From: Micromonospora sp. KC213
Lineage (GTDB): Bacteria > Actinomycetota > Actinomycetes > Mycobacteriales > Micromonosporaceae
Length of the DNA: 64,000 nucleotides
Direction of reading: 5' to 3'
Assembly: GCF_004348325.1 (NCBI RefSeq)
Contig: NZ_SMKF01000006.1
Location: forward strand, 1-64,000
Shown: one piece after another, positions 6,027-18,416 of the stretch
How the letters are laid out: the number at the start of each line of letters is the position of its first letter
Position numbering within the stretch: position 1 is the stretch's first letter
Position numbers and translations under genes: made by a program
Notes under the pieces: model-generated
What the model was told of the DNA's origin: nothing
What the model saw: only the letters and a program-made list of their open reading frames with translations
Database searches by the model: none

Positions 6027-6965
6027 ATGTCCCGCCGTACCCCTCGGCTCTTCGCCGCCGCCCTCGCGCTGGCCGCGCTGACCCTCGGCGCCTGCGCCGA
6101 GAAGGCCCCGAGCGACACCCCCGCCACCGGCGACAGCTCGACGGGCGCCGCCTTCCCGGCCACCGTCGGCCGGTTGACGCTGGAGAAGCGGCCCGAGAAG
6201 ATCGTCTCGCTCTCGCCGACCGCGACCGAGATGCTCTTCGCCATCGGCGCCGGCCCGCAGGTCACCGCCGTCGACGACCAATCCAACTTCCCGGCGGAGG
6301 CACCGAGGAGCGAGCTGTCCGGCTTCCAGCCGAACGCAGAGGCGATCGCGGCCAAGGGCCCCGACCTGGTGGTCCTCGCCAACGACACCAACAAGATCGT
6401 CGCCCAGCTCACCGCGCTGAAGATCCCGGTGCTGCTCACCCCGGCGGCGGCCACCCTGGACGACAGCTACCGGCAGATCACCGACCTGGGCACGCTGACC
6501 GGGCACCCGACCGAGGCGGCCGACGTCACCCGGCGGATGAAGGACGAGATCGCCAAGCTCACCAAGGACCTGCCGCAGCGGTCGACGAAGCTCACCTACT
6601 ACCACGAGCTGGGCCCGGAGCTGTACACCGCGACCAGCAAGACCTTCATCGGCTCGATCTACGCCCTCGCCGGGCTGGAGAACATCGCCGACGCCGCGGA
6701 CGCCGACGGCAAGGCGGGCGGCTACCCGCAGCTCTCCCAGGAAGTGATCGTCAAGGCGAACCCCGACCTCATCTTCCTGGCCGACGCCAAGTGCTGCCAG
6801 CAGAGCCCCGACACGGTCAGGGCGCGCAGCGGCTGGGCCGGACTCAAGGCGGTCAGGAACAACCAGGTGGTGACCCTCGACGACGACATCGCGTCGCGCT
6901 GGGGTCCGCGCGTGGTCGACCAGCTCCGCACGATCGTCGACGCGGTCGCCAAGGTGCCCGCATGA
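6027..6965 (+). CDS. btuF: Cobalamin ABC transporter substrate-binding lipoprotein
   Basis: A 312-residue lipoprotein of the class III (helical backbone) metal-chelate binding family. Residues 1-22 are a signal peptide ending in the lipobox LGAC, with Cys23 as the lipid anchor. The mature part has the family opening KIVSLSPTATEMLFAIGAG and the helix/loop pattern of BtuF. It would capture cobalamin at the membrane surface for the permease encoded next. AGGAGGACC precedes the ATG. The upstream cobalamin riboswitch supports B12 rather than siderophore as the substrate; the sequence alone would fit either. Confidence 0.88.
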   Translation: MSRRTPRLFAAALALAALTLGACAEKAPSDTPATGDSSTGAAFPATVGRLTLEKRPEKIVSLSPTATEMLFAIGAGPQVTAVDDQSNFPAEAPRSELSGFQPNAEAIAAKGPDLVVLANDTNKIVAQLTALKIPVLLTPAAATLDDSYRQITDLGTLTGHPTEAADVTRRMKDEIAKLTKDLPQRSTKLTYYHELGPELYTATSKTFIGSIYALAGLENIADAADADGKAGGYPQLSQEVIVKANPDLIFLADAKCCQQSPDTVRARSGWAGLKAVRNNQVVTLDDDIASRWGPRVVDQLRTIVDAVAKVPA

Positions 6966-6978
6966 CCGTCCGTCGTCG

Positions 6979-8088
6979 GTGACGGCACGGCCCACGGCGG
7001 CCCGACCGGTCCGCCCGCCCGCCGCGACCACCTGCGGCGGTACGGCACGCCCGGCTGGGCTGCGCAAACGGTGGCTCGCCGCCGCCGTGCTGTCCGTGCT
7101 GGTCGCGCTGGTCGCCGGCGTCTCCCTCGGCCCGGTCAGCATGCCGCCCGGCCGGGTCGCGGCCGAACTGCTCAACCTGCTGCCCGGAGTGCACCTCGAC
7201 AGCGGGCTGACCGCCGGCGAGATCGCCATCGTCACCCAACTCCGGCTGCCCCGGGTGGTGCTCGGCCTGCTCGTCGGTGGGCTGCTCGCCCTGGCCGGCG
7301 GGGCGTACCAGGGGGTGTTCCGCAACCCATTGGCCGACCCGTACCTGCTCGGCGTGGCGGCCGGGGCGGGGCTGGCGGTCACCGCCGTCATCGCGCTCGG
7401 CGGTACGACCGACCCGCTGGCCGGGCTGCCGGTGACCGTGCCGCTGGCCGCGTTCCTCGGCGCGCTCGGGGCGGTGACGCTGACGTACCTGCTCGGCGCG
7501 GCCGGCGGGAAGGGCCGCTCCCCGGCGACCCTGATCCTGGCCGGGGTGGCCGTCTCGGCGTTCTTCTCCGCCGGGCAGACCTACCTGCTGCAACGGCACT
7601 CCGACAGCATCCAGCAGGTCTACTCCTGGCTGCTGGGCCGGCTCGCCACGGCCGGCTGGCACGACGTCCTGCTCGTGCTGCCGTACTTCCTGTTGACCGC
7701 CGTCGTGGTGCTGCTGCACCGTCGGGAGCTGGACGTGCTCTCCGTCGGCGACGACGAGGCCACCAGCCTCGGGCTGCATCCGCAGCGCTCCCGCTACCTG
7801 CTGATCGCCGCCGCCTCGCTGGGCACCGCCGCCGCGGTCTCCGCCTCCGGGCTGATCGGCTTCGTCGGGATCATCGTGCCGCACACCGTACGACTGCTCG
7901 CCGGGTCCAGCTACCGGGTGATCCTGCCGCTGTCGATGATCTTCGGCGGGGCGTTCCTGGCACTCACCGACGTGGTGGCCCGGACCGCCGCCGCGCCCGC
8001 CGAGATCCCGATCGGTGTGGTCACCGCCCTGCTCGGCGGCCCGTTCTTCGTCCTGGTGCTGCGCACCGCCCGGCGGGTGCTGTCGTGA
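6979..8088 (+). CDS. btuC: Cobalamin ABC transporter permease (FecCD family)
   Basis: A 369-residue polytopic membrane protein with the usual 10 or so helices of FecCD/BtuC permeases and the conserved segments LRLPRV, GGLLALAGGAYQGVFRNPLADP and GLIGFVGIIVPHTVR. It forms the channel for B12 import with the ATPase encoded next. It begins with GTG 13 bases after btuF and overlaps the ATPase gene by four bases. The first 25 residues are an Ala/Pro/Arg-rich lead, so an internal start near residue 27 is possible. Confidence 0.88.
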   Translation: MTARPTAARPVRPPAATTCGGTARPAGLRKRWLAAAVLSVLVALVAGVSLGPVSMPPGRVAAELLNLLPGVHLDSGLTAGEIAIVTQLRLPRVVLGLLVGGLLALAGGAYQGVFRNPLADPYLLGVAAGAGLAVTAVIALGGTTDPLAGLPVTVPLAAFLGALGAVTLTYLLGAAGGKGRSPATLILAGVAVSAFFSAGQTYLLQRHSDSIQQVYSWLLGRLATAGWHDVLLVLPYFLLTAVVVLLHRRELDVLSVGDDEATSLGLHPQRSRYLLIAAASLGTAAAVSASGLIGFVGIIVPHTVRLLAGSSYRVILPLSMIFGGAFLALTDVVARTAAAPAEIPIGVVTALLGGPFFVLVLRTARRVLS

Positions 8089-8882
8089 CCCCGGCCGGCA
8101 CCGGCAGCGCCCCGGCGGTCGAGGTGCGCGACCTGCACGTCACCCTGGGCGGAGCGCCGATCCTCACCGGTGTCGACCTGACCGTCGCCACCGGAGAGTG
8201 GGTCACCGTGATCGGCCCGAACGGCGCCGGCAAGTCGACCCTGTTGCGGGCCGTCGGTGGCCTGCTCCCCGCCGGGCACGCCGTCTCCCTGTCCGGTACG
8301 CCGTTGCGGGCGATGCGTCCCCGCGCGCGGGCCCGGGTGGTGGCCACCGTCGCCCAGTCACCGGTGGTGCCGGCCGGCATGTCGGTCCTCGACTACGTGC
8401 TGCTCGGTCGCACCCCGTACATCCCGCCGTTGGGCCGCGAGTCCGCCGCCGACCTGGCCGTCGTGTACGAGGTGCTGGACCGGCTGGACCTGGCCGCCTT
8501 CCACGGCCGGGAACTGGCCACCCTTTCCGGCGGGGAGCGGCAGCGGGTCTTCCTGGCCCGGGCGCTGGCGCAGGGCGCCAGCCTGCTGCTGCTCGACGAA
8601 CCGACCAGCGCGCTGGACATCGGCCACCAGCAGGAGGTGCTGGAGCTGGTCGACCAGCTGCGCCGGGAGCACGAGCTGACCGTGCTCGCCACCATGCACG
8701 ACCTCTCCATCGCCGGGGAGTACGCCGACCGTCTGGTGCTGCTCGCCGACGGCCGGGTGGTCGCCGCCGGCCCGCCCACCGAGGTGCTGACCGAGGAACT
8801 GCTCGCCACCCACTATCGGGCGCGCGTCCGGGTCGTTCCCGGCGAGCACGGCCCCCTCGTCGTCCCCGTCCGAGCCGGCTGA
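8085..8882 (+). CDS. btuD: Cobalamin ABC transporter ATP-binding protein
   Basis: A 265-residue ABC ATPase of the FepC/BtuD type. Walker A is GPNGAGKST at 44-52, the Q-loop is near 91, the signature LSGGERQ at 147-153, Walker B LLLLDEP at 167-173, and the switch histidine is in TMHDLS. It powers the btuC permease. Its GTG start lies within the btuC stop (GTGA), indicating translational coupling. The three genes form one riboswitch-controlled importer operon that converges on the VOC gene. Confidence 0.88.
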   Translation: MTPAGTGSAPAVEVRDLHVTLGGAPILTGVDLTVATGEWVTVIGPNGAGKSTLLRAVGGLLPAGHAVSLSGTPLRAMRPRARARVVATVAQSPVVPAGMSVLDYVLLGRTPYIPPLGRESAADLAVVYEVLDRLDLAAFHGRELATLSGGERQRVFLARALAQGASLLLLDEPTSALDIGHQQEVLELVDQLRREHELTVLATMHDLSIAGEYADRLVLLADGRVVAAGPPTEVLTEELLATHYRARVRVVPGEHGPLVVPVRAG

Positions 8883-11033: not shown

Positions 11034-11132
11034 GTTCACTCCCTCGTGGATGGTCACCGTCCATGATCACTGATTCGGGCAAGCCGGGCCACGGCCAGCC
11101 CAACCACGGAAACCGCCCGTGCATGGTGAGCG

Positions 11133-11831
11133 CTACGGCCGTCGTTCAGGCGTGGGATTCACCAGGCCGGCGTCGTACGCGGCGATCACCAACTGCACCC
11201 GGTCACGGGCCGCGAGTTTGCTCAGTAGGTGCGAGATGTGGGACTTGACGGTCTTGACGGCGATGCTGAGGTGCCCGGCGATCTCGTCGTTGGACAGCCC
11301 CTGCCCGATGAGGCCGAGCACCTCGTCCTCCCGGGCGGTCAGTTGGCTGAGCCGGGACCGTGCCGGAGCGGCAGCGACGGGATGCCGCCGGTGGACGTAG
11401 TGCTCGACCAGGCGCGCCAGGATCGACGGGGCGAAGAGCGATTCACCGCTGTGCGTACGCCTGATGGCGTCGAGCAGATCGTCGGGGCGGCTGTCTTTCA
11501 GCAGGAAACCACTGGCCCCGGCACGCAACGCGTGGAACACGTACTCGTCGAGATCGAACATGCTCAGGACCAGCACCCGGGTGTGCGCGAGCTCCGGGAG
11601 CCGACAGATGCTCCGGGTCGCCTCGATGCCGTCGAGCCGCGGCATCCTGACATCCATGACCACCACGTCGGGCGTGGTAACCCTGGCGGTGGCGACAGCT
11701 TCCACACCGTCGCCGGCCTCCCCCATCACGGCGAAACCAGGCTCGGCATCGATGATCATAGCGAGGCTCTGCCGGAGCAGGGGTTCGTCGTCGACGAGAA
11801 GGACCCGCACGGGTCGATCGCACTCGGTCAC
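11133..11831 (-). CDS. LuxR/NarL-family response regulator
   Basis: A 232-residue two-domain regulator. The receiver domain (about 8-125) has the acidic pair Asp14-Asp15, phospho-acceptor Asp60 in VVMDVRMP and Lys near 110 (LLKDS). The LuxR helix-turn-helix (about 160-225) has LTAREDEVLGLIGQGLSNDEIA. It starts with GTG inside the stop codon of the kinase gene (GTGA overlap), so the pair is translationally coupled. The pair diverges from the bacteriocin immunity/export genes at 12924, which makes them candidate targets; this is inferred from position. Confidence 0.9.
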   Translation of the reverse strand: MTECDRPVRVLLVDDEPLLRQSLAMIIDAEPGFAVMGEAGDGVEAVATARVTTPDVVVMDVRMPRLDGIEATRSICRLPELAHTRVLVLSMFDLDEYVFHALRAGASGFLLKDSRPDDLLDAIRRTHSGESLFAPSILARLVEHYVHRRHPVAAAPARSRLSQLTAREDEVLGLIGQGLSNDEIAGHLSIAVKTVKSHISHLLSKLAARDRVQLVIAAYDAGLVNPTPERRP

Positions 11832-12688
11832 GCCGCCCCCTCGGGGATGATGGCCTCGAGGCGGAACCCCGTAGGGCGTCCCGGCTCCTTCGCCCGTGGC
11901 TCCGCCGTCAACGTCCCACCCAGGCTGCTCACCCGTTCCCGCAACCCGATGAGGCCGTGGCCGGCGCCGGGCCGGACGGCCCAGCTCCGGTTCGGCCCGG
12001 CGTCGTCGATGGTCACGCTGACCGCCGACGGTGTTCGCGTCAGACGGACGTCGACGGTGGTCGAGCCGGCGTAACGCGCGCTGTTGGCCAGCCCTTCGCG
12101 GACGACCCGGCAGATCGCCACCTGGACGCCCGGAGACACCGCGCCGAGCTCCTCCTGGGTCAACTCCACGTGCAGGCCGGCCCGCCCGGCACCCTCGACG
12201 ATCTCCGGCAGGGACGCCAGGGTCTCCGTGGGGTGGCGGGCGGGCCGGTCGTCGGCCTCCCGTAGTGCCTCCAGCATCCGGCGTAGCTCAACCGTCGCCT
12301 TCCGGCTGATGGCCTCCACATCCTCGATGGCGGCCAGCAGCGCCTGATCGTCCGGCTTGCGGGCGTGCAGGTGCGCGGCGGCGGCGGTCCGCACGGTGAT
12401 CATGCCCAGGCCGTGGGAGACGATGTCGTGCAGGTCGCGGGCGAGGCGCAGGCGCTCGGCGAGCACCGCCTCCGCGATGTCGCGGCGCGCCATCGCCGCC
12501 TCGTGCTCGGCCCGCTCGACCAGCAGTCGGACAATCGCCCAGACGGAGACCGCCGCGAAGCCGAGCAGCAGGACGGTGACGAACGGCCAGGTGAGTCCGA
12601 GCGCGGGGACGGCCGTTATCACGATGAGCAGCGCACCGGCCGGCAGCAGCAACCATGATCGACGGGAGCGACGCCGGCTCTCGGTCAT
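11828..12688 (-). CDS. NarL-family sensor histidine kinase
   Basis: A 286-residue membrane kinase. Two membrane helices (about 11-31 and 34-55) enclose almost no external loop, so it probably senses within or at the membrane. The HisKA_3 dimerisation domain carries His87 in RDLHDIVSHGLG, followed by a HATPase_c domain with REGLANSARYA (N box) and GHGLIGLRERV (G box). It passes phosphate to the overlapping response regulator. Small intramembrane-sensing kinases of this layout often respond to cell-envelope stress or antimicrobial peptides, which fits the neighbouring bacteriocin module. Confidence 0.88.
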   Translation of the reverse strand: MTESRRRSRRSWLLLPAGALLIVITAVPALGLTWPFVTVLLLGFAAVSVWAIVRLLVERAEHEAAMARRDIAEAVLAERLRLARDLHDIVSHGLGMITVRTAAAAHLHARKPDDQALLAAIEDVEAISRKATVELRRMLEALREADDRPARHPTETLASLPEIVEGAGRAGLHVELTQEELGAVSPGVQVAICRVVREGLANSARYAGSTTVDVRLTRTPSAVSVTIDDAGPNRSWAVRPGAGHGLIGLRERVSSLGGTLTAEPRAKEPGRPTGFRLEAIIPEGAA

Positions 12689-12923
12689 GCGGTGCAGCCT
12701 ACCTTTCTCCGAATCTTCCCAGAGGCGTCTATGTTCCCGAGATCATGTTGACGCGAGGTTACGGGCAGCACATCGGACCACGGTCTGACGGGCTCAGGGC
12801 CGACAACGGACTCCGGATACCGCCCACGGCCCGATGTTCCCTCGGGCTCCGCGTGGTTGTTTGGAGTACGGCGGGCGGGCACCACCTTCCGCACGAGTCT
12901 CTAGAGATCGCCCGGGAGGGTCG

Positions 12924-14891
12924 TTGTACAGGCGCGTGGTAATGGCGGTCGCGGGGGCGCTGTTCTCCCTGTTGGCTCTGGTGGCGGTGATCGTCACCGA
13001 TCTGCACGACCGGGACTTTCCCCAGGCCATCGGCGCGCACAGCAGGTTGGGCCTGGACTTCGGGGAATCGCAGTTCAGCGACCGAGAGGCGTTCGCCGCA
13101 CTGGCGCAGATGGATGCCGACTGGAACCTCGGCCTGGTCAGGATCGCACCGGACCTGGCTGGCGGCAGCGACGAGCGGGTCTTCGTAGCCCTCAACGACG
13201 GGAGCCTGCCCGCGACGTTTCGTTGGTTCAGCGGCACCGGCACGGGAAGGGTCGTCGACCGGGACCGACTGGCCAACTCGTCGCCCGACGGCTCCTACCT
13301 CGTCACCGGGGAGACTGCCCGGCTGGTCGAGTTGGAGAGTCGGCTGCGCAGCGCGGGCGTACGAGTGAACCGCACCGACGCCTCCGTCACCGACAGTCTG
13401 CGGTTCACCATGCGGGAGGGGGGTTTCGCCGCCGCCGTCCTGGCCGCGTTCGCCCTCATCGCGGCGCTGGCGCTGTTCTGGCTGTCGATGAAGGCGCGCA
13501 GCCGCGCGCTCCGGGTGCTCGGTGGCTGCCCCACCTTGCGCATCCAGGCACAGGACCTGGGCGGGTTCGTGGCCGCACTGCTCGTTCCGGCAGCCGCTGT
13601 CACTCTTGCGGCCGCCGGCTACGTGGGCCTTGCTCGTGGCTGGCTGTACGTCAGCGTCTTCGTCAAGGTGCTGGCCGGCGTGGAGGTCGCGGTCATCGCC
13701 GTGTCGCTGCTCGTGGCCCTGGCCATGTCGGCCTCCGCTTGGCCCAGCGCCACCATGCTCGCCACCCGCCAGCCCGCGGTGAAGAGCCTGCGCTCGGCGG
13801 CCGTCGTCCTCCAGGCGCTGACCTTCCTGTTGGTGGTGAGTGCGGCCGGACCGGCCTGGTCGGCGTACCGCAGTTCGTCCGCCACCGCCGCCGAGATGGC
13901 GCAGTGGAAGAACCTCGCGGATCAGGTCGCCATCAGGTTCGGGATGAGCGATGAGGAGATGACCAGTCTCGAACCCCGGATCGGCAACCTGATCAAAGAC
14001 GGTGAATCGGCCGGAGCGGTCGCTTTTTCGTACACCTTCTCGGCGGAGGAGTGGGGAGGCGATTTCGGCGAATACTCGGCGGTCACTTTTGTGAACCAAC
14101 GATGGCTCGACCTGATGACCACGAGCGCGCCGGAGAATGCGCTCACGCCGGTGCCGTACGAGCATGTGAACGGCATGGTCTCCCGAGAGCTCGGTGACCA
14201 GTTCTCCCTCTTTTCCAGAGACCGACGTTCTGGCGAGGAACTCCTGTCGGGCTTCGGATACCTGCGGCCCGCGGACGGATTCCGGCTACCGGTCGGTCGG
14301 GGTGGCGGCAGCTTGAGTTTTCTGGCCGACGTCCTTGTTGTCGTCATGCCGTCTCTGCACTCGGCGATCAATGACCAGAACCTGACGTCGCTGGCCTCGG
14401 GCAGGAACATTCTTTTCACCGGCGTATCAACCACCCAGGCGTTGTTCGAGCGCAACGGGCTGACCGCAGAGGCCCTGAGCAACCGGGGGTTCAAGGGCGA
14501 ACTGGGTATCGTCTACGTCGCGGAGGACGGGATTCTTCGGGCGCAGTTCATGAAGTACCTGGTCTGTCTGATGAATCTCGCGCTCGTCGCTCTCGTCGTC
14601 GCCTTCACGGTCGCGGCTGCGATCAGCGCACTGATCACGGCCCTGTTGCACGCGAAGCGCGATTTCCCGCTGCGGCTGTCCGGCCGGTCGTGGGCGCGGA
14701 TCCTGCAGAGCCGGGTGGTCAAGGAACTGCTGGCCGGCGCGGCCCTGGTCTGCCTCGTTGCGCTCTTCCAGCGGCCCGACGCCGTAGGGGCCCTACTGGT
14801 GGCCGCGCTGTTCGGGATGCTCATCGCCCCACTGAGCCATCTGTGGGCCGCGAACTGGTGTTTCTCCGGCGTCAGTAGGCGTCGCATCTGA
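12924..14891 (+). CDS. Bacteriocin-associated integral membrane protein (lactococcin 972 immunity/export type)
   Basis: A 655-residue membrane protein with one N-terminal helix, an extracellular domain, a group of about four helices near residues 150-300, a second external domain, and four C-terminal helices. This FtsX-like plan, together with the ATPase encoded next, matches the putative immunity/export protein of lactococcin 972 loci. The TTG at 12924 is chosen because GGGAGGG ends four bases before it; GTG at 12936 and ATG at 12942 are alternatives with poor spacing. By eye its codons are less GC-rich at third positions than those of neighbouring genes, suggesting transfer. It ends in TGATG at the start of the next reading frame. 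Confidence 0.78.
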   Translation: MYRRVVMAVAGALFSLLALVAVIVTDLHDRDFPQAIGAHSRLGLDFGESQFSDREAFAALAQMDADWNLGLVRIAPDLAGGSDERVFVALNDGSLPATFRWFSGTGTGRVVDRDRLANSSPDGSYLVTGETARLVELESRLRSAGVRVNRTDASVTDSLRFTMREGGFAAAVLAAFALIAALALFWLSMKARSRALRVLGGCPTLRIQAQDLGGFVAALLVPAAAVTLAAAGYVGLARGWLYVSVFVKVLAGVEVAVIAVSLLVALAMSASAWPSATMLATRQPAVKSLRSAAVVLQALTFLLVVSAAGPAWSAYRSSSATAAEMAQWKNLADQVAIRFGMSDEEMTSLEPRIGNLIKDGESAGAVAFSYTFSAEEWGGDFGEYSAVTFVNQRWLDLMTTSAPENALTPVPYEHVNGMVSRELGDQFSLFSRDRRSGEELLSGFGYLRPADGFRLPVGRGGGSLSFLADVLVVVMPSLHSAINDQNLTSLASGRNILFTGVSTTQALFERNGLTAEALSNRGFKGELGIVYVAEDGILRAQFMKYLVCLMNLALVALVVAFTVAAAISALITALLHAKRDFPLRLSGRSWARILQSRVVKELLAGAALVCLVALFQRPDAVGALLVAALFGMLIAPLSHLWAANWCFSGVSRRRI

Positions 14892-14902
14892 TGGGAGTTC
14901 CA

Positions 14903-15577
14903 ATGCTGGTTGAGGCCGAGGACGTTTCCGTGGCGATCGGCGGGCGCCAGGTGCTCGACGGCGAGTCCGTACGCTGTGAGGCCGGCACGATGACCGCCCT
15001 GGTCGGCCCGAGCGGATCCGGGAAAACCACCCTGCTGCACTGCCTCGGGCTGCTGCTCCCGGTCAGTCGGGGACGCATCCTGATCGATGGAAAGGGCGTC
15101 ACAAGGTACGGCTCGGCGGCGCGGCGTCGGTTCTGGCGGGAGCAGGCGGCGTTCGTGTTGCAGGACTACGGGATCATGGATGAGGAGTCGGTAGCCTTCA
15201 ACGTCACCATGCAGTCGAGTCTGTTGGGCCGGTGGGCCACCGGTGACGGGAAGCGGCTGGCGCAGGTTCTCGAGCAAACCGGGCTGGGGGACCGCCAAAC
15301 TGAGTTGGCCAGCCACCTCAGCGGTGGTGAGAAACAGCGGCTCGCGCTGGCCCGAGCCATCTACAAGCGAGCCGCGGTCGTGTTCGTCGACGAGCCCACC
15401 GCGTCGCTCGACGCCGCCAACCGGCGAAAGGTCATCGCTTTGTTCGCGGAGTTCGCCGCGAGCGGTTGCACAGTCATCGTGTCCACGCACGACTCGGAAA
15501 TGATCGAGGCATGCGGCTCCCGGCACGAGATCGGGAGCGGACGAACTGCTCCGCACCCCGTCAGTCAGTCCCACTAG
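14903..15577 (+). CDS. Bacteriocin export ABC transporter ATP-binding protein, lactococcin 972 group
   Basis: A 224-residue ABC ATPase: Walker A GPSGSGKT at 35-42, signature LSGGEKQ at 139-145, Walker B VVFVDEP at 159-165 and a switch His in VSTHDSE. The Q-loop sequence VLQDYGIMDEESVAFNV is typical of the lactococcin 972 ABC subgroup. It would energise the preceding FtsX-like membrane protein to export or expel the bacteriocin. The ATG at 14903 has GGGAG five bases upstream. An ATG at 14891, overlapping the preceding stop, would add four residues. Confidence 0.82.
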   Translation: MLVEAEDVSVAIGGRQVLDGESVRCEAGTMTALVGPSGSGKTTLLHCLGLLLPVSRGRILIDGKGVTRYGSAARRRFWREQAAFVLQDYGIMDEESVAFNVTMQSSLLGRWATGDGKRLAQVLEQTGLGDRQTELASHLSGGEKQRLALARAIYKRAAVVFVDEPTASLDAANRRKVIALFAEFAASGCTVIVSTHDSEMIEACGSRHEIGSGRTAPHPVSQSH

Positions 15578-15593
15578 GGCGGAAGGACTCCCC

Positions 15594-15950
15594 ATGTCAT
15601 TGGTATCCAAGATCGCGATCGGCGCCGTGTTGGTGGTGGCCGTCGGCGCGGGCACGGCTGCGGTGCTCGGCGGTGTTTTCGCGATGTCGAGCGACACCCA
15701 CCCGCCTTGCGAGGAACTGCCGACCACGGCCGAGGCCACTGCGGCGCTCACCAAAAACCAGGCCCTCGCCACCGACATCGAGACGCTGGGGAAGGGCATC
15801 TCCGTTGATGTGGGCTCGCCGTGCCCCAAGGGCCAGGACCGTGCGCTCATCCAGGTGACCTACGGATCAAAGTCCGAACGTGAGTCCATCGACAGCCTGC
15901 TCGGGCGCCGCGACGGGTTCGGTGTTCCAATGTATCTGGTCGAGAAGTAG
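15594..15950 (+). CDS. Small membrane-anchored protein of the bacteriocin module, unknown function
   Basis: A 118-residue protein with one N-terminal hydrophobic helix (about 7-31) that is either an uncleaved anchor or a signal peptide. The outside part of about 85 residues has two cysteines (near 39 and 77) that could form a disulfide. GGAAGGA precedes the ATG at 15594, 16 bases after the ATPase gene, so it belongs to the same transcript. I do not recognise a family. An accessory immunity role is an inference from operon position. Confidence 0.7.
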   Translation: MSLVSKIAIGAVLVVAVGAGTAAVLGGVFAMSSDTHPPCEELPTTAEATAALTKNQALATDIETLGKGISVDVGSPCPKGQDRALIQVTYGSKSERESIDSLLGRRDGFGVPMYLVEK

Positions 15951-15959
15951 CCGGGTGAC

Positions 15960-16001
15960 ACGCCTGTGGCTCGGCGACCGATGTCACCGAGCCGCAGGTG
16001 T
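15960..16001. terminator. Bidirectional hairpin terminator between the bacteriocin module and the reverse-strand remnant
   Basis: Bases 15960-15974 pair with 15987-16001 over 15 positions, including two G-U pairs, around a 12-base loop. It begins ten bases after the stop of the small membrane protein and ends just beyond the stop of the reverse-strand remnant, so it can serve both. Confidence 0.65.
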
Positions 16002-16011
16002 CAGAGCACCG

Positions 16012-16284
16012 TCAGCAGGTGCGGTAGTAGTAGCTCGCATCGAGGCCAGGCGAGTTGACGGTGTTGATCTCGGCGATGGACTTCCTGCCAGAGGCGGTGT
16101 CGGCGCTGCGCGACCGGTCAACCTCCCGGCCGTCGATGTGCTTGACCACCGTCGAACCGTAGCACTTGTTGACGGTGTAGTAGAACGGAGCTCGACGTCC
16201 CAGAAACCGTAGTTCCAGGTGCCGCCTTCCGACGGGTGCTGCGTCTTCTCTCCCGAGGGTCAGGGGAACCTTACTGGACGCCAC
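16012..16284 (-). pseudogene. Frameshifted, leaderless remnant of a lactococcin 972-family bacteriocin
   Basis: Reading leftwards, one frame at about 16229-16199 encodes EGGTWNYGFWD, matching the conserved start of mature lactococcin 972 (EGTWQHG). The neighbouring frame from about 16185 to the stop at 16012 encodes FYYTVNKCYGSTVVKH, and ends in LDASYYYRTC. These match the family's SNY..H..SATV block and its ASFYY end; actinobacterial members commonly end in YYRTC. A one-base loss between about 16185 and 16206 would explain the break. The TWNYG frame has a stop codon at once upstream, only 60-80 bases separate it from the helicase gene, and no signal peptide or ribosome site is visible. A 90-codon frame from GTG 16284 is open but unlikely to be functional. 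Sequencing error could explain the frameshift, not the missing leader. Confidence 0.68.
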
Positions 16285-16307
16285 GTAAATGGGAAATGAG
16301 TTTAGTT

Positions 16308-18416
16308 TCAGGTATCGCTCGAACAGTCGTGCGTCTGCTGTCGGTCGGTGAGCGACGCCGGTCGGCCCAGCGGGGCGGGCAGCGGGGCGGTGTGCAGCAC
16401 GGTGAGCCGGGAGACCGCCCGGGTCAGCACCACGTAGAGCCGGTGTAGGCCGCGCGGCTCGGCGGCGACGATCGCGGCCGGCTCGACGACCACCACGTGG
16501 TCGTACTCCAAGCCCTTGACCAGGGTCGCGGGGATCACGGTGACCCGCGCCGCGGCCGCGACGTCGTCGGCGGTCGCGGTCTGCACGCCGGCGGCGGCCA
16601 GCGCCGCGCGGAGCCCGGCCACCGCGTCGTCGGTGGCGATCACGCCGATCGAGCCGTCGTGGCCGAGCGCCGCCCGTACCTCGGCCACCGTCGCGGCCGT
16701 CAGGTCGGTCACGGTACGCACGTCCAGCGCGCCGTCGCGGCGCAGCGACTCGGCCGGCGGCACGTCCACGGCGAGAGCGGGCAGCAGCCGGTTGGCGAAC
16801 GCGACCACCGCGGCGGGTACCCGGAAGCCGACGCTCAGCGGCACCACCGTGGCGTCCGGCTTGCCCAGATGGGTCAGGGAGTCCCGCCAGTCGGTGGCGG
16901 CCCAGGGTGCGGTGCCCTGGGCCAGGTCGCCGAGGAGAGTGATCGAGCCGTGTTCGCTGCGCCGGGCGATGGCCCGGCACTGCATGGGGGAGAGGTCCTG
17001 CGCCTCGTCGACCACCACGTGCCCGTAGCCGCCCGGGCGTTCGATCAGCCCGGCGGCCTCGTCGATGAGCACCGCGTCGGCGGCCGTCCACCGGGTGGCC
17101 TTCGGGGTGCGGCCGAGCTTCGTGCCGCCGGGCAGCAGTGCCTGCTCGTCGGCGGTGAGCAGCCCGTCGGCCGCCGCCGCGAGCGCGTCGGCGTCGGAGA
17201 AGAGCCGGTACAGCAGCCCTTCCGGGGTCAGCGCCGGCCAGACCGCGTCCAGGAGGGCGGTGACCGGCTGCGCCTTCGCCATCCGGCGCAGCCAGGCGTC
17301 GCTGGGTGACTCGGCCCGGCGGGCCTCGGCCTGGCGTTGCAGCAGCCCCACCACCCGGGCCCGGATCCGCTCCCGCCCGGTGGCGTACGGCAGGCCCTCC
17401 CGACGGGTTTCCTCGACCATCCGGTGCAGCGGGTCCAGGCCGATCCGCCAGCGGAACGAGCCGTCCGGCACCATGATCGGCTCGGTGGGCGTACCGATGT
17501 GCGTGTCGACGGCCCGACGCAGCACCTGGGCCATCCGGACGTCGTGCTTGAGGACCGCCACGGCGGAATCGTCGACCGCCCGGACCGGCACCCGGGCGAC
17601 CAGGTCCTCCACGGTGGCCTGTGCGACCTCGACCTCGCCCAGGGCCGGCAGCACCGCCGCGATGTACGACAGGAACGCCCGGTTCGGCCCCACGATCAGC
17701 ACACCGGACCGGCGCAGCCGTTCCCGGTGCAGGTAGAGCAGGTACGCGGCACGGTGCAGCCCGACGGCCGTCTTGCCGGTGCCGGGGGCGCCCTGGACGC
17801 AGATCGAGTCGGCCAGGTCGGCCCGGACCAGCTCGTCCTGCTCGGGCTGGATGGTGGCGACGATGTCCCGCATCGGGCCGACGCGGGGCCGCTCGATCTC
17901 GGCGGTGAGGATCCGGCTGGCGGTGCCCAGCTCCTCACCCCGGTCCAGGTGCTCGTCCTCGAAGCTGGTCAGCGCGCCGGCGCTGAAGCCGAACCGGCGG
18001 CGGACGGCGACGCCCTGCGGATCACGGGCGCTGGCCCGGTAGAACGACCGGGAGACCGGGGCCCGCCAGTCCAGCACCAGCGGTTCACCGAGGTCGTCGG
18101 TGACGTGCCGCCGCCCCACGTGGTACTCCCGTCCGGCGTGGTCGGGGTCGGCCGGCCCGAAGTCGAGCCGGCCGAAGAAGAGCGGGGTGGTCGGATCGTC
18201 GGCCAGCTCCTTGACCCGCCGGGCCATGTGCCGGCCGAGCTGCTCGGCGGTGTACGCGTCCCCGGCGACCTTGTCGCCGGTGGCGAAGAGCGCCTCGGCG
18301 CGTTCCCGCATCCGCCGCAGCGCGGCGCGAGAGGCGTCCAGGTGGGTCCGCTCGGCGGCGAGCTGCCCGTCGAGCGTGTCGATCGGATCGCTGGGGGGCG
18401 TGGCGGCACGGGTCAT
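16308..18416 (-). CDS. HelD-type UvrD/Rep-superfamily helicase (RNA polymerase recycling factor)
   Basis: A 702-residue superfamily 1 helicase. A charged N-terminal coiled coil (about 12-75) precedes the NTPase core, with Walker A GAPGTGKT at 209-216, Walker B HVVVDEAQDLSPMQ near 485, and late motifs ATLVKGLEYDHVVVVEP and RLYVVLTRAVSRLTVL. The N-terminal arm and inserted 1A region fit HelD, which removes stalled RNA polymerase from DNA and in some actinobacteria protects against rifamycins. The ATG at 18416 follows GAAAGG. I saw no match to the rifamycin-associated element upstream. The gene ends immediately before the bacteriocin remnant. Confidence 0.83.
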   Translation of the reverse strand: MTRAATPPSDPIDTLDGQLAAERTHLDASRAALRRMRERAEALFATGDKVAGDAYTAEQLGRHMARRVKELADDPTTPLFFGRLDFGPADPDHAGREYHVGRRHVTDDLGEPLVLDWRAPVSRSFYRASARDPQGVAVRRRFGFSAGALTSFEDEHLDRGEELGTASRILTAEIERPRVGPMRDIVATIQPEQDELVRADLADSICVQGAPGTGKTAVGLHRAAYLLYLHRERLRRSGVLIVGPNRAFLSYIAAVLPALGEVEVAQATVEDLVARVPVRAVDDSAVAVLKHDVRMAQVLRRAVDTHIGTPTEPIMVPDGSFRWRIGLDPLHRMVEETRREGLPYATGRERIRARVVGLLQRQAEARRAESPSDAWLRRMAKAQPVTALLDAVWPALTPEGLLYRLFSDADALAAAADGLLTADEQALLPGGTKLGRTPKATRWTAADAVLIDEAAGLIERPGGYGHVVVDEAQDLSPMQCRAIARRSEHGSITLLGDLAQGTAPWAATDWRDSLTHLGKPDATVVPLSVGFRVPAAVVAFANRLLPALAVDVPPAESLRRDGALDVRTVTDLTAATVAEVRAALGHDGSIGVIATDDAVAGLRAALAAAGVQTATADDVAAAARVTVIPATLVKGLEYDHVVVVEPAAIVAAEPRGLHRLYVVLTRAVSRLTVLHTAPLPAPLGRPASLTDRQQTHDCSSDT

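Follow-up and report, generated by a model that had tools for sequence, protein, structure and literature searches.

Lactococcin 972 (Lcn972) is described as a bacteriocin that binds lipid II and inhibits septum formation (PMC4055356; PMC9964109). A related locus, the pneumococcal streptococcin B locus scbABC, is reported to combine an L972-type toxin gene with predicted immunity and transporter genes; only ScbBC is encoded in 157 of 571 pneumococcal genomes, and the same account states that the B and C functions are unverified in any L972 locus (PMC11796350). A precedent for toxin loss with the B and C genes kept—scbBC without scbA—has already been described in pneumococci (PMC11796350).

The DNA analysed here (the window) is a stretch of 64,000 nucleotides from Micromonospora sp. 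KC213. On its reverse strand, positions 16012–16244 hold what is very probably a dead lactococcin 972-family bacteriocin gene, a pseudogene relic that may formerly have been the toxin gene of the adjacent module or of a sister one. What remains is the mature part and the stop codon; the first ~40 codons are absent. Both peptides quoted in the original prediction are present, in neighbouring reverse-strand frames. The first half (16182–16259) lies in a frame that reads ...EGGTWNYGFWDVELRS and has a stop codon just upstream, with neither a start codon nor a signal sequence before it. The second half (16012–16185) lies in the frame with YYTVNKCYG...YYYRTC and reads FYYTVNKCYGSTVVKH...LDASYYYRTC, followed by a stop. 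A fuller reading of the same strand gives ...PSEGGTWNYGFWDVELRS for the first of these frames and FYYTVNKCYGSTVVKHIDGREVDRSRSADTASGRKSIAEINTVNSPGLDASYYYRTC-stop for the second. The mature region shared by the family and the relic is GGTW-YG...YYTVN-C-GSS...YYYRTC, then a stop.

The assignment to the lactococcin 972 family is borne out by profile, structure-database and DNA-level comparisons. The 57-aa second half alone matches PF09683 (Lactococcin_972) as the only Pfam family at E≤10, with 13.8 bits (E 0.088), below the cut-off of 22. With the halves joined by XXXX, the search that the original prediction had proposed, the score rises to 25.9 bits (E 1.5e-5), above that cut-off. Among PDB sequences, the second half alone retrieves 9HKJ with E 1.5e-11, and the two halves together retrieve it nearly full-length (E 1.5e-19, 73.5 bits). 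A literature search found no paper naming 9HKJ; PMC12328743, considered as its source, concerns another peptide class. A self-built profile of 27 peptides (that of G673 and those of 26 fetched profile-hit loci out of 28, L096 and L099 being dropped) detects only the first half of the relic (14.5 bits, E 0.0047) and misses the second half at E≤1. TIGR01653 of NCBIfam does not match the window relic, for which no family was returned at E≤1, and the intact peptide of genome G404 (see below) likewise falls under the cut-off (16.2 of 32.1 bits).

Taken alone, none of the longer frames matched a Pfam family at E≤10, and this holds for the 108-aa frame around the second half as well. When the complete KC213 genome was searched with PF09683, nothing was returned, as for all 14 control genomes, so a routine search misses the relic; the original prediction had expected standard gene calling to do so. 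Neither tblastn with the second half in 300 genomes of the family nor the G673 mature peptide in 153 genomes of the class found anything but the window, and elsewhere in the KC213 genome there is no full-length copy of the relic segment (best secondary match 44 bases, E 0.002). One further place in the genome contigs, at L061, was rejected as a chance match: 28 residues inside an 818-aa frame that reads as a sulfatase. Against plasmid records, the second half gave one weak match (E 0.1), annotated as an IS91 family transposase and also set aside, and the G404 peptide gave none at E≤0.1.

Could the resemblance be due to chance, or the segment be conserved sequence of another kind? The single frames do fall below the PF09683 cut-off, and the sole match in the genome contigs is a short stretch inside an unrelated long open reading frame. 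Against this stand the 9HKJ match obtained from one half and the DNA-level homology to intact family genes described next, which leave such an explanation a negligible probability.

The first of the intact relatives was found through PF09683, which occurs in 18 of 354 genomes of the window's family (none of the 18 in its own genus) and in 14 of 397 genomes sampled from the order, with five genomes common to the two lists. Regions around 28 of these places were fetched, and one partial place, L030, was left out. The original prediction had suggested looking for the same locus in related strains with an intact signal peptide; such genes were located in G404 and G673, which belong to another family than the window's, and both are intact and signal-bearing. 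The product of the G404 gene (C1:265128-265472) is a precursor of 115 aa; its N-terminus is signal-like, and its mature part is 67% identical to the window halves over 24 residues and 55% over 56 residues. At the DNA level, 169 of 235 alignment columns are identical between this gene and 16012–16244. The G673 gene (C1:6139187-6139531), found among 80 genomes of G404's genus, is 83% identical to that of G404 and shares 176 of 217 aligned bases, gaps left out, with the same window segment; a third match in that genus, in G675, is weak (E 9.7e-4).

In both G404 and G673, the toxin gene lies directly upstream of, and on the same strand as, homologues of the window's large membrane protein (39% identity) and ABC ATPase (57–58%). 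Among the 28 fetched regions, a membrane-protein match of this strength occurs only in G404 (next, L079, 21%, E 1e-4). ABC matches in the other 27 L972-profile regions reach 34–40% at best in 13 and are absent at E≤1e-3 in 14. As a separate observation, the PF09683 match at L096 (G470; 6604–6708 of the reverse complement) stops at profile position 37 and the remainder seems out of frame; this locus, followed downstream by an open frame of 714 codons and an ABC gene, is possibly a second split L972 copy.

Comparison with the intact genes reveals two independent defects in the window copy. Firstly, in the G404 and G673 alignments homology begins at about codon 41–44 of the intact gene: the start codon, the signal peptide and the first mature residues are gone, in agreement with the original prediction that the signal peptide is missing. 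Upstream of EGGTW, the best mean hydrophobicity over 12 residues in any of the three frames is 1.1, compared with 2.3–2.4 in intact G673 and G404; of the 28 profile-hit loci, 27 reach at least 1.8 on the same measure, and only L099, which is not a convincing member, falls short. Secondly, there is a frame change in the mature part near 16182. The predicted offset between the halves is recovered by tblastn with the G404 peptide, which gives exactly two pieces in adjacent frames (E 2.9e-19); neither this search nor the frame translations found one continuous reading frame at the relic. We classify the relic as a pseudogene because it is without its first ~40 codons and a signal core is encoded in none of the upstream frames.

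The frame change, taken by itself, could be a sequencing error. On this explanation, error in sequencing or assembly accounts for the whole frame change, and the gene has one continuous mature frame, still lacking a signal peptide. The assembly is a draft of 363 contigs, neither half contains an internal stop, and the remaining codons look constrained: dN/dS is 0.31 and 0.37 against G673 and 0.27 and 0.58 against G404 (24 or 51 codons), with 0.22 between the intact G404 and G673 genes. Error alone nevertheless seems unlikely to be the full account, as it leaves unexplained the missing first ~40 codons and the absence of a signal core in three frames; the missing 5' end could not be a sequencing error. 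Given that the remaining codons still look constrained, the loss may be recent, or the numbers may be too small to tell.

The segment could conceivably yield a functional product that lacks a signal peptide or that arises by recoding from one frame to the other; the mature-part codons and the stop are retained. We consider this very improbable: the first-half frame offers no start codon in the bases that separate the upstream stop from EGGTW, such an arrangement is not used in G404 or G673, and the close relative G090 lacks the segment. The relic is a decayed addition to a known bacteriocin family, itself an ordinary dead gene.

Immediately upstream of the relic is a stretch (16245–16326) with a GC content of 51%, compared with 75% for the adjacent HelR gene, whose extended end it overlaps. 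No frame of this stretch encodes a signal core, and it is absent from G090. Positions 16245–16330 have only 7–8-base words in common with the sequences that precede the membrane protein gene and the intact genes. The HelR/HelD-type RNA polymerase motor gene (16308–18416, reverse strand) ends, as had been stated for the helicase, ~80 bases before EGGTW, with its stop at 16308. Its reading frame continues for 18 codons beyond the point where its relatives commonly stop: stops lie within four codons of the PL motif in 22 of the 24 loci read in frame (29 HelR loci, five of them read out of frame). At 16308–16360, then, the window's HelR-type gene has lost the common stop position of its relatives.

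On the other side of the relic, between its stop codon and the convergent 118-aa gene, lies a strong hairpin (15960–16001). A 70 nt fold past the stop has an energy of -40.8 kcal/mol and a z of -4.5, and 15 of 26 intact L972 genes (L081, L096 and L099 left out) have z ≤ -3 in the 70 nt after the stop. A consensus promoter and terminator scan, which needs a T-run, found nothing at the relic; the hairpin is seen by folding only. We take it to be the relic's own terminator, now common to the convergent 118-aa gene. Stable hairpins after L972 stops (L072–L104) are perhaps attenuators that set the ratio of toxin to immunity where a membrane-protein gene follows.

The module with which the relic converges has genes on both strands. 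On the forward strand are (i) a large membrane protein gene of bact_immun_7tm-like type (12834–14891; start codon uncertain), with a mere trace of TIGR01654 (10.6 bits; cut-off 189.35), (ii) an ABC ATPase gene of the L972-export type (14891–15577), for which TIGR03608 is the best NCBIfam model at 171.1 bits, below its cut-off of 254.85, and (iii) a gene for a 118-aa protein (15594–15950), the third member of the transporter operon. The G404 homologues also score below both cut-offs, at 32.7 bits for the membrane protein (TIGR01654) and 167.4 bits for the ATPase (TIGR03608). The 118-aa protein has homologues beside the same ABC gene in G090 (86%), G607 (48%) and G260 (35%). By eye it shows one N-terminal hydrophobic stretch and two Cys, and it has no Pfam match over cut-off; it is a candidate for an undescribed immunity component. 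On the reverse strand, divergent from the membrane protein gene, are genes for a histidine kinase (HisKA_3; 11828–12688; PF07730, 48.8 bits) and a LuxR/NarL-type response regulator (11133–11831; PF00072, 93.9 bits; PF00196, 64 bits). The membrane-protein homologue at L112 (G260; 6132–8159) contains one in-frame TGA.

Relic and module together form a discrete block of ~5.3 kb (11065–16342), between the HelR gene and a beta-lactamase-fold gene, as delimited by blastn of both flanks to L100. Genome G076 is without the whole block: the flank alignments end at window positions 16343 and 11064, which fall 3 bases apart in G076, between its own HelR and beta-lactamase-fold genes. No direct repeat is obvious by eye at the block ends. 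The relic stands at the end of the block, and G090 (~90% DNA identity) carries the complete block without it: at the place of 366 window bases that include the relic, it has 61 bases of unrelated sequence.

The original prediction went further and suggested a loss of the toxin with retention of its immunity and export genes. The neighbours are indeed of the L972 immunity and ABC type, and this part stands. That the module lost its own toxin is only plausible: the relic lies past the downstream end of the module and points towards it, while in G404 and G673 the toxin is upstream and on the same strand, and six genomes with the membrane protein have no detectable toxin nearby. Homologues of the membrane protein occur in five of 151 genomes of the genus and, at E≤1e-40, in six of 397 genomes of the order, the window's own genome being included in both counts. 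Nine genomes with the membrane protein comprise two with an intact L972 gene, one with a relic (the window) and six without a convincing L972 gene in the fetched regions, a count biased by G673 having been found through its peptide.

These observations bear on whether the relic was ever the cognate toxin of the adjacent transporter. It may not have been, if the module already stood alone and a bacteriocin fragment arrived or was rearranged beside it. Within the fetched regions, no convincing L972 gene lies beside the membrane protein in G090, G015, G115, G111, G607 or G260 (weak matches in these loci are noise: profile 7.1 bits, E 0.99 in G111; tblastn E 0.013 or worse). A divergent kinase fills the upstream slot in G000, G090, G015, G115, G111 and G260, G090, G607 and G260 have the 118-aa gene as third member, and the convergent orientation of the relic points the same way. 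In G607, which outside the genus has the closest relative of the membrane protein (61%; ATPase 83%, 118-aa gene 48%), no L972 gene could be detected over 6.7 kb on the upstream side and 4.8 kb on the downstream side, and for this reason the module may have been toxin-free for long. In an unrooted protein tree, the window groups with G090, then with G015/G115 and G607, away from G404 and G673. Set against these points is the position of the relic's nearest relatives, in G404 and G673, directly upstream of the same rare membrane-protein and ABC type (six of 397 order genomes). We regard a late arrival as a serious possibility, though not the likelier one. A common origin of relic and module is favoured because chance adjacency to the rare transporter type of the relic's nearest relatives is unlikely.

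How such a locus would work can be outlined from the intact members. An intact precursor would be exported by Sec, and the mature peptide would attack lipid II of sensitive Gram-positive neighbours, as is known for Lcn972 and presumed for this subtype. In the window copy the start, the signal peptide and the first mature residues are gone and the rest of the mature part is split over two frames, and on these grounds no secreted bacteriocin should be made from it. We infer that the relic once served this module as its toxin gene, or else a sister module that came in as part of the same block. What survives (the two-component system, the membrane protein, the ATPase and the 118-aa protein) would now act, if at all, as a toxin-less immunity or stress module. 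More tentatively still, and with some doubt on our part, the block could be a stand-alone, sensor-controlled resistance module against the L972-type peptides of other strains, kept because neighbours make them; the relic would then mark its origin from a toxin locus, and the 118-aa protein would be an undescribed third immunity component. The locus illustrates in detail how a dead L972 gene can escape single-frame profile search. It also connects lactococcin 972-type peptides with a two-component/ABC block that otherwise has no name, making a toxin-free immunity role testable.

In relation to known systems, the closest likeness is to the lactococcin 972 family itself (PF09683), as represented by G673 and G404: the window shares their mature motifs, stop, hairpin, and neighbouring membrane protein and ABC ATPase. 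The window copy differs from the intact genes in having no start or signal peptide, in being broken across two frames, and in its convergent position beyond the downstream end of the module. The solved structure 9HKJ ('Lactococcin 972 family bacteriocin') is of a complete peptide, unlike the window relic, and lcn972-orf2-orf3 of pBL1 is described as plasmid-borne, intact and bacteriocin-producing, again unlike it (PMC4055356). With scbABC, as reported (PMC11796350), the window shares the pattern of toxin loss with the B and C genes kept; there scbA is missing, whereas in the window a convergent split relic remains, and the window module is adjoined by a kinase/regulator pair of another type, which may control it.
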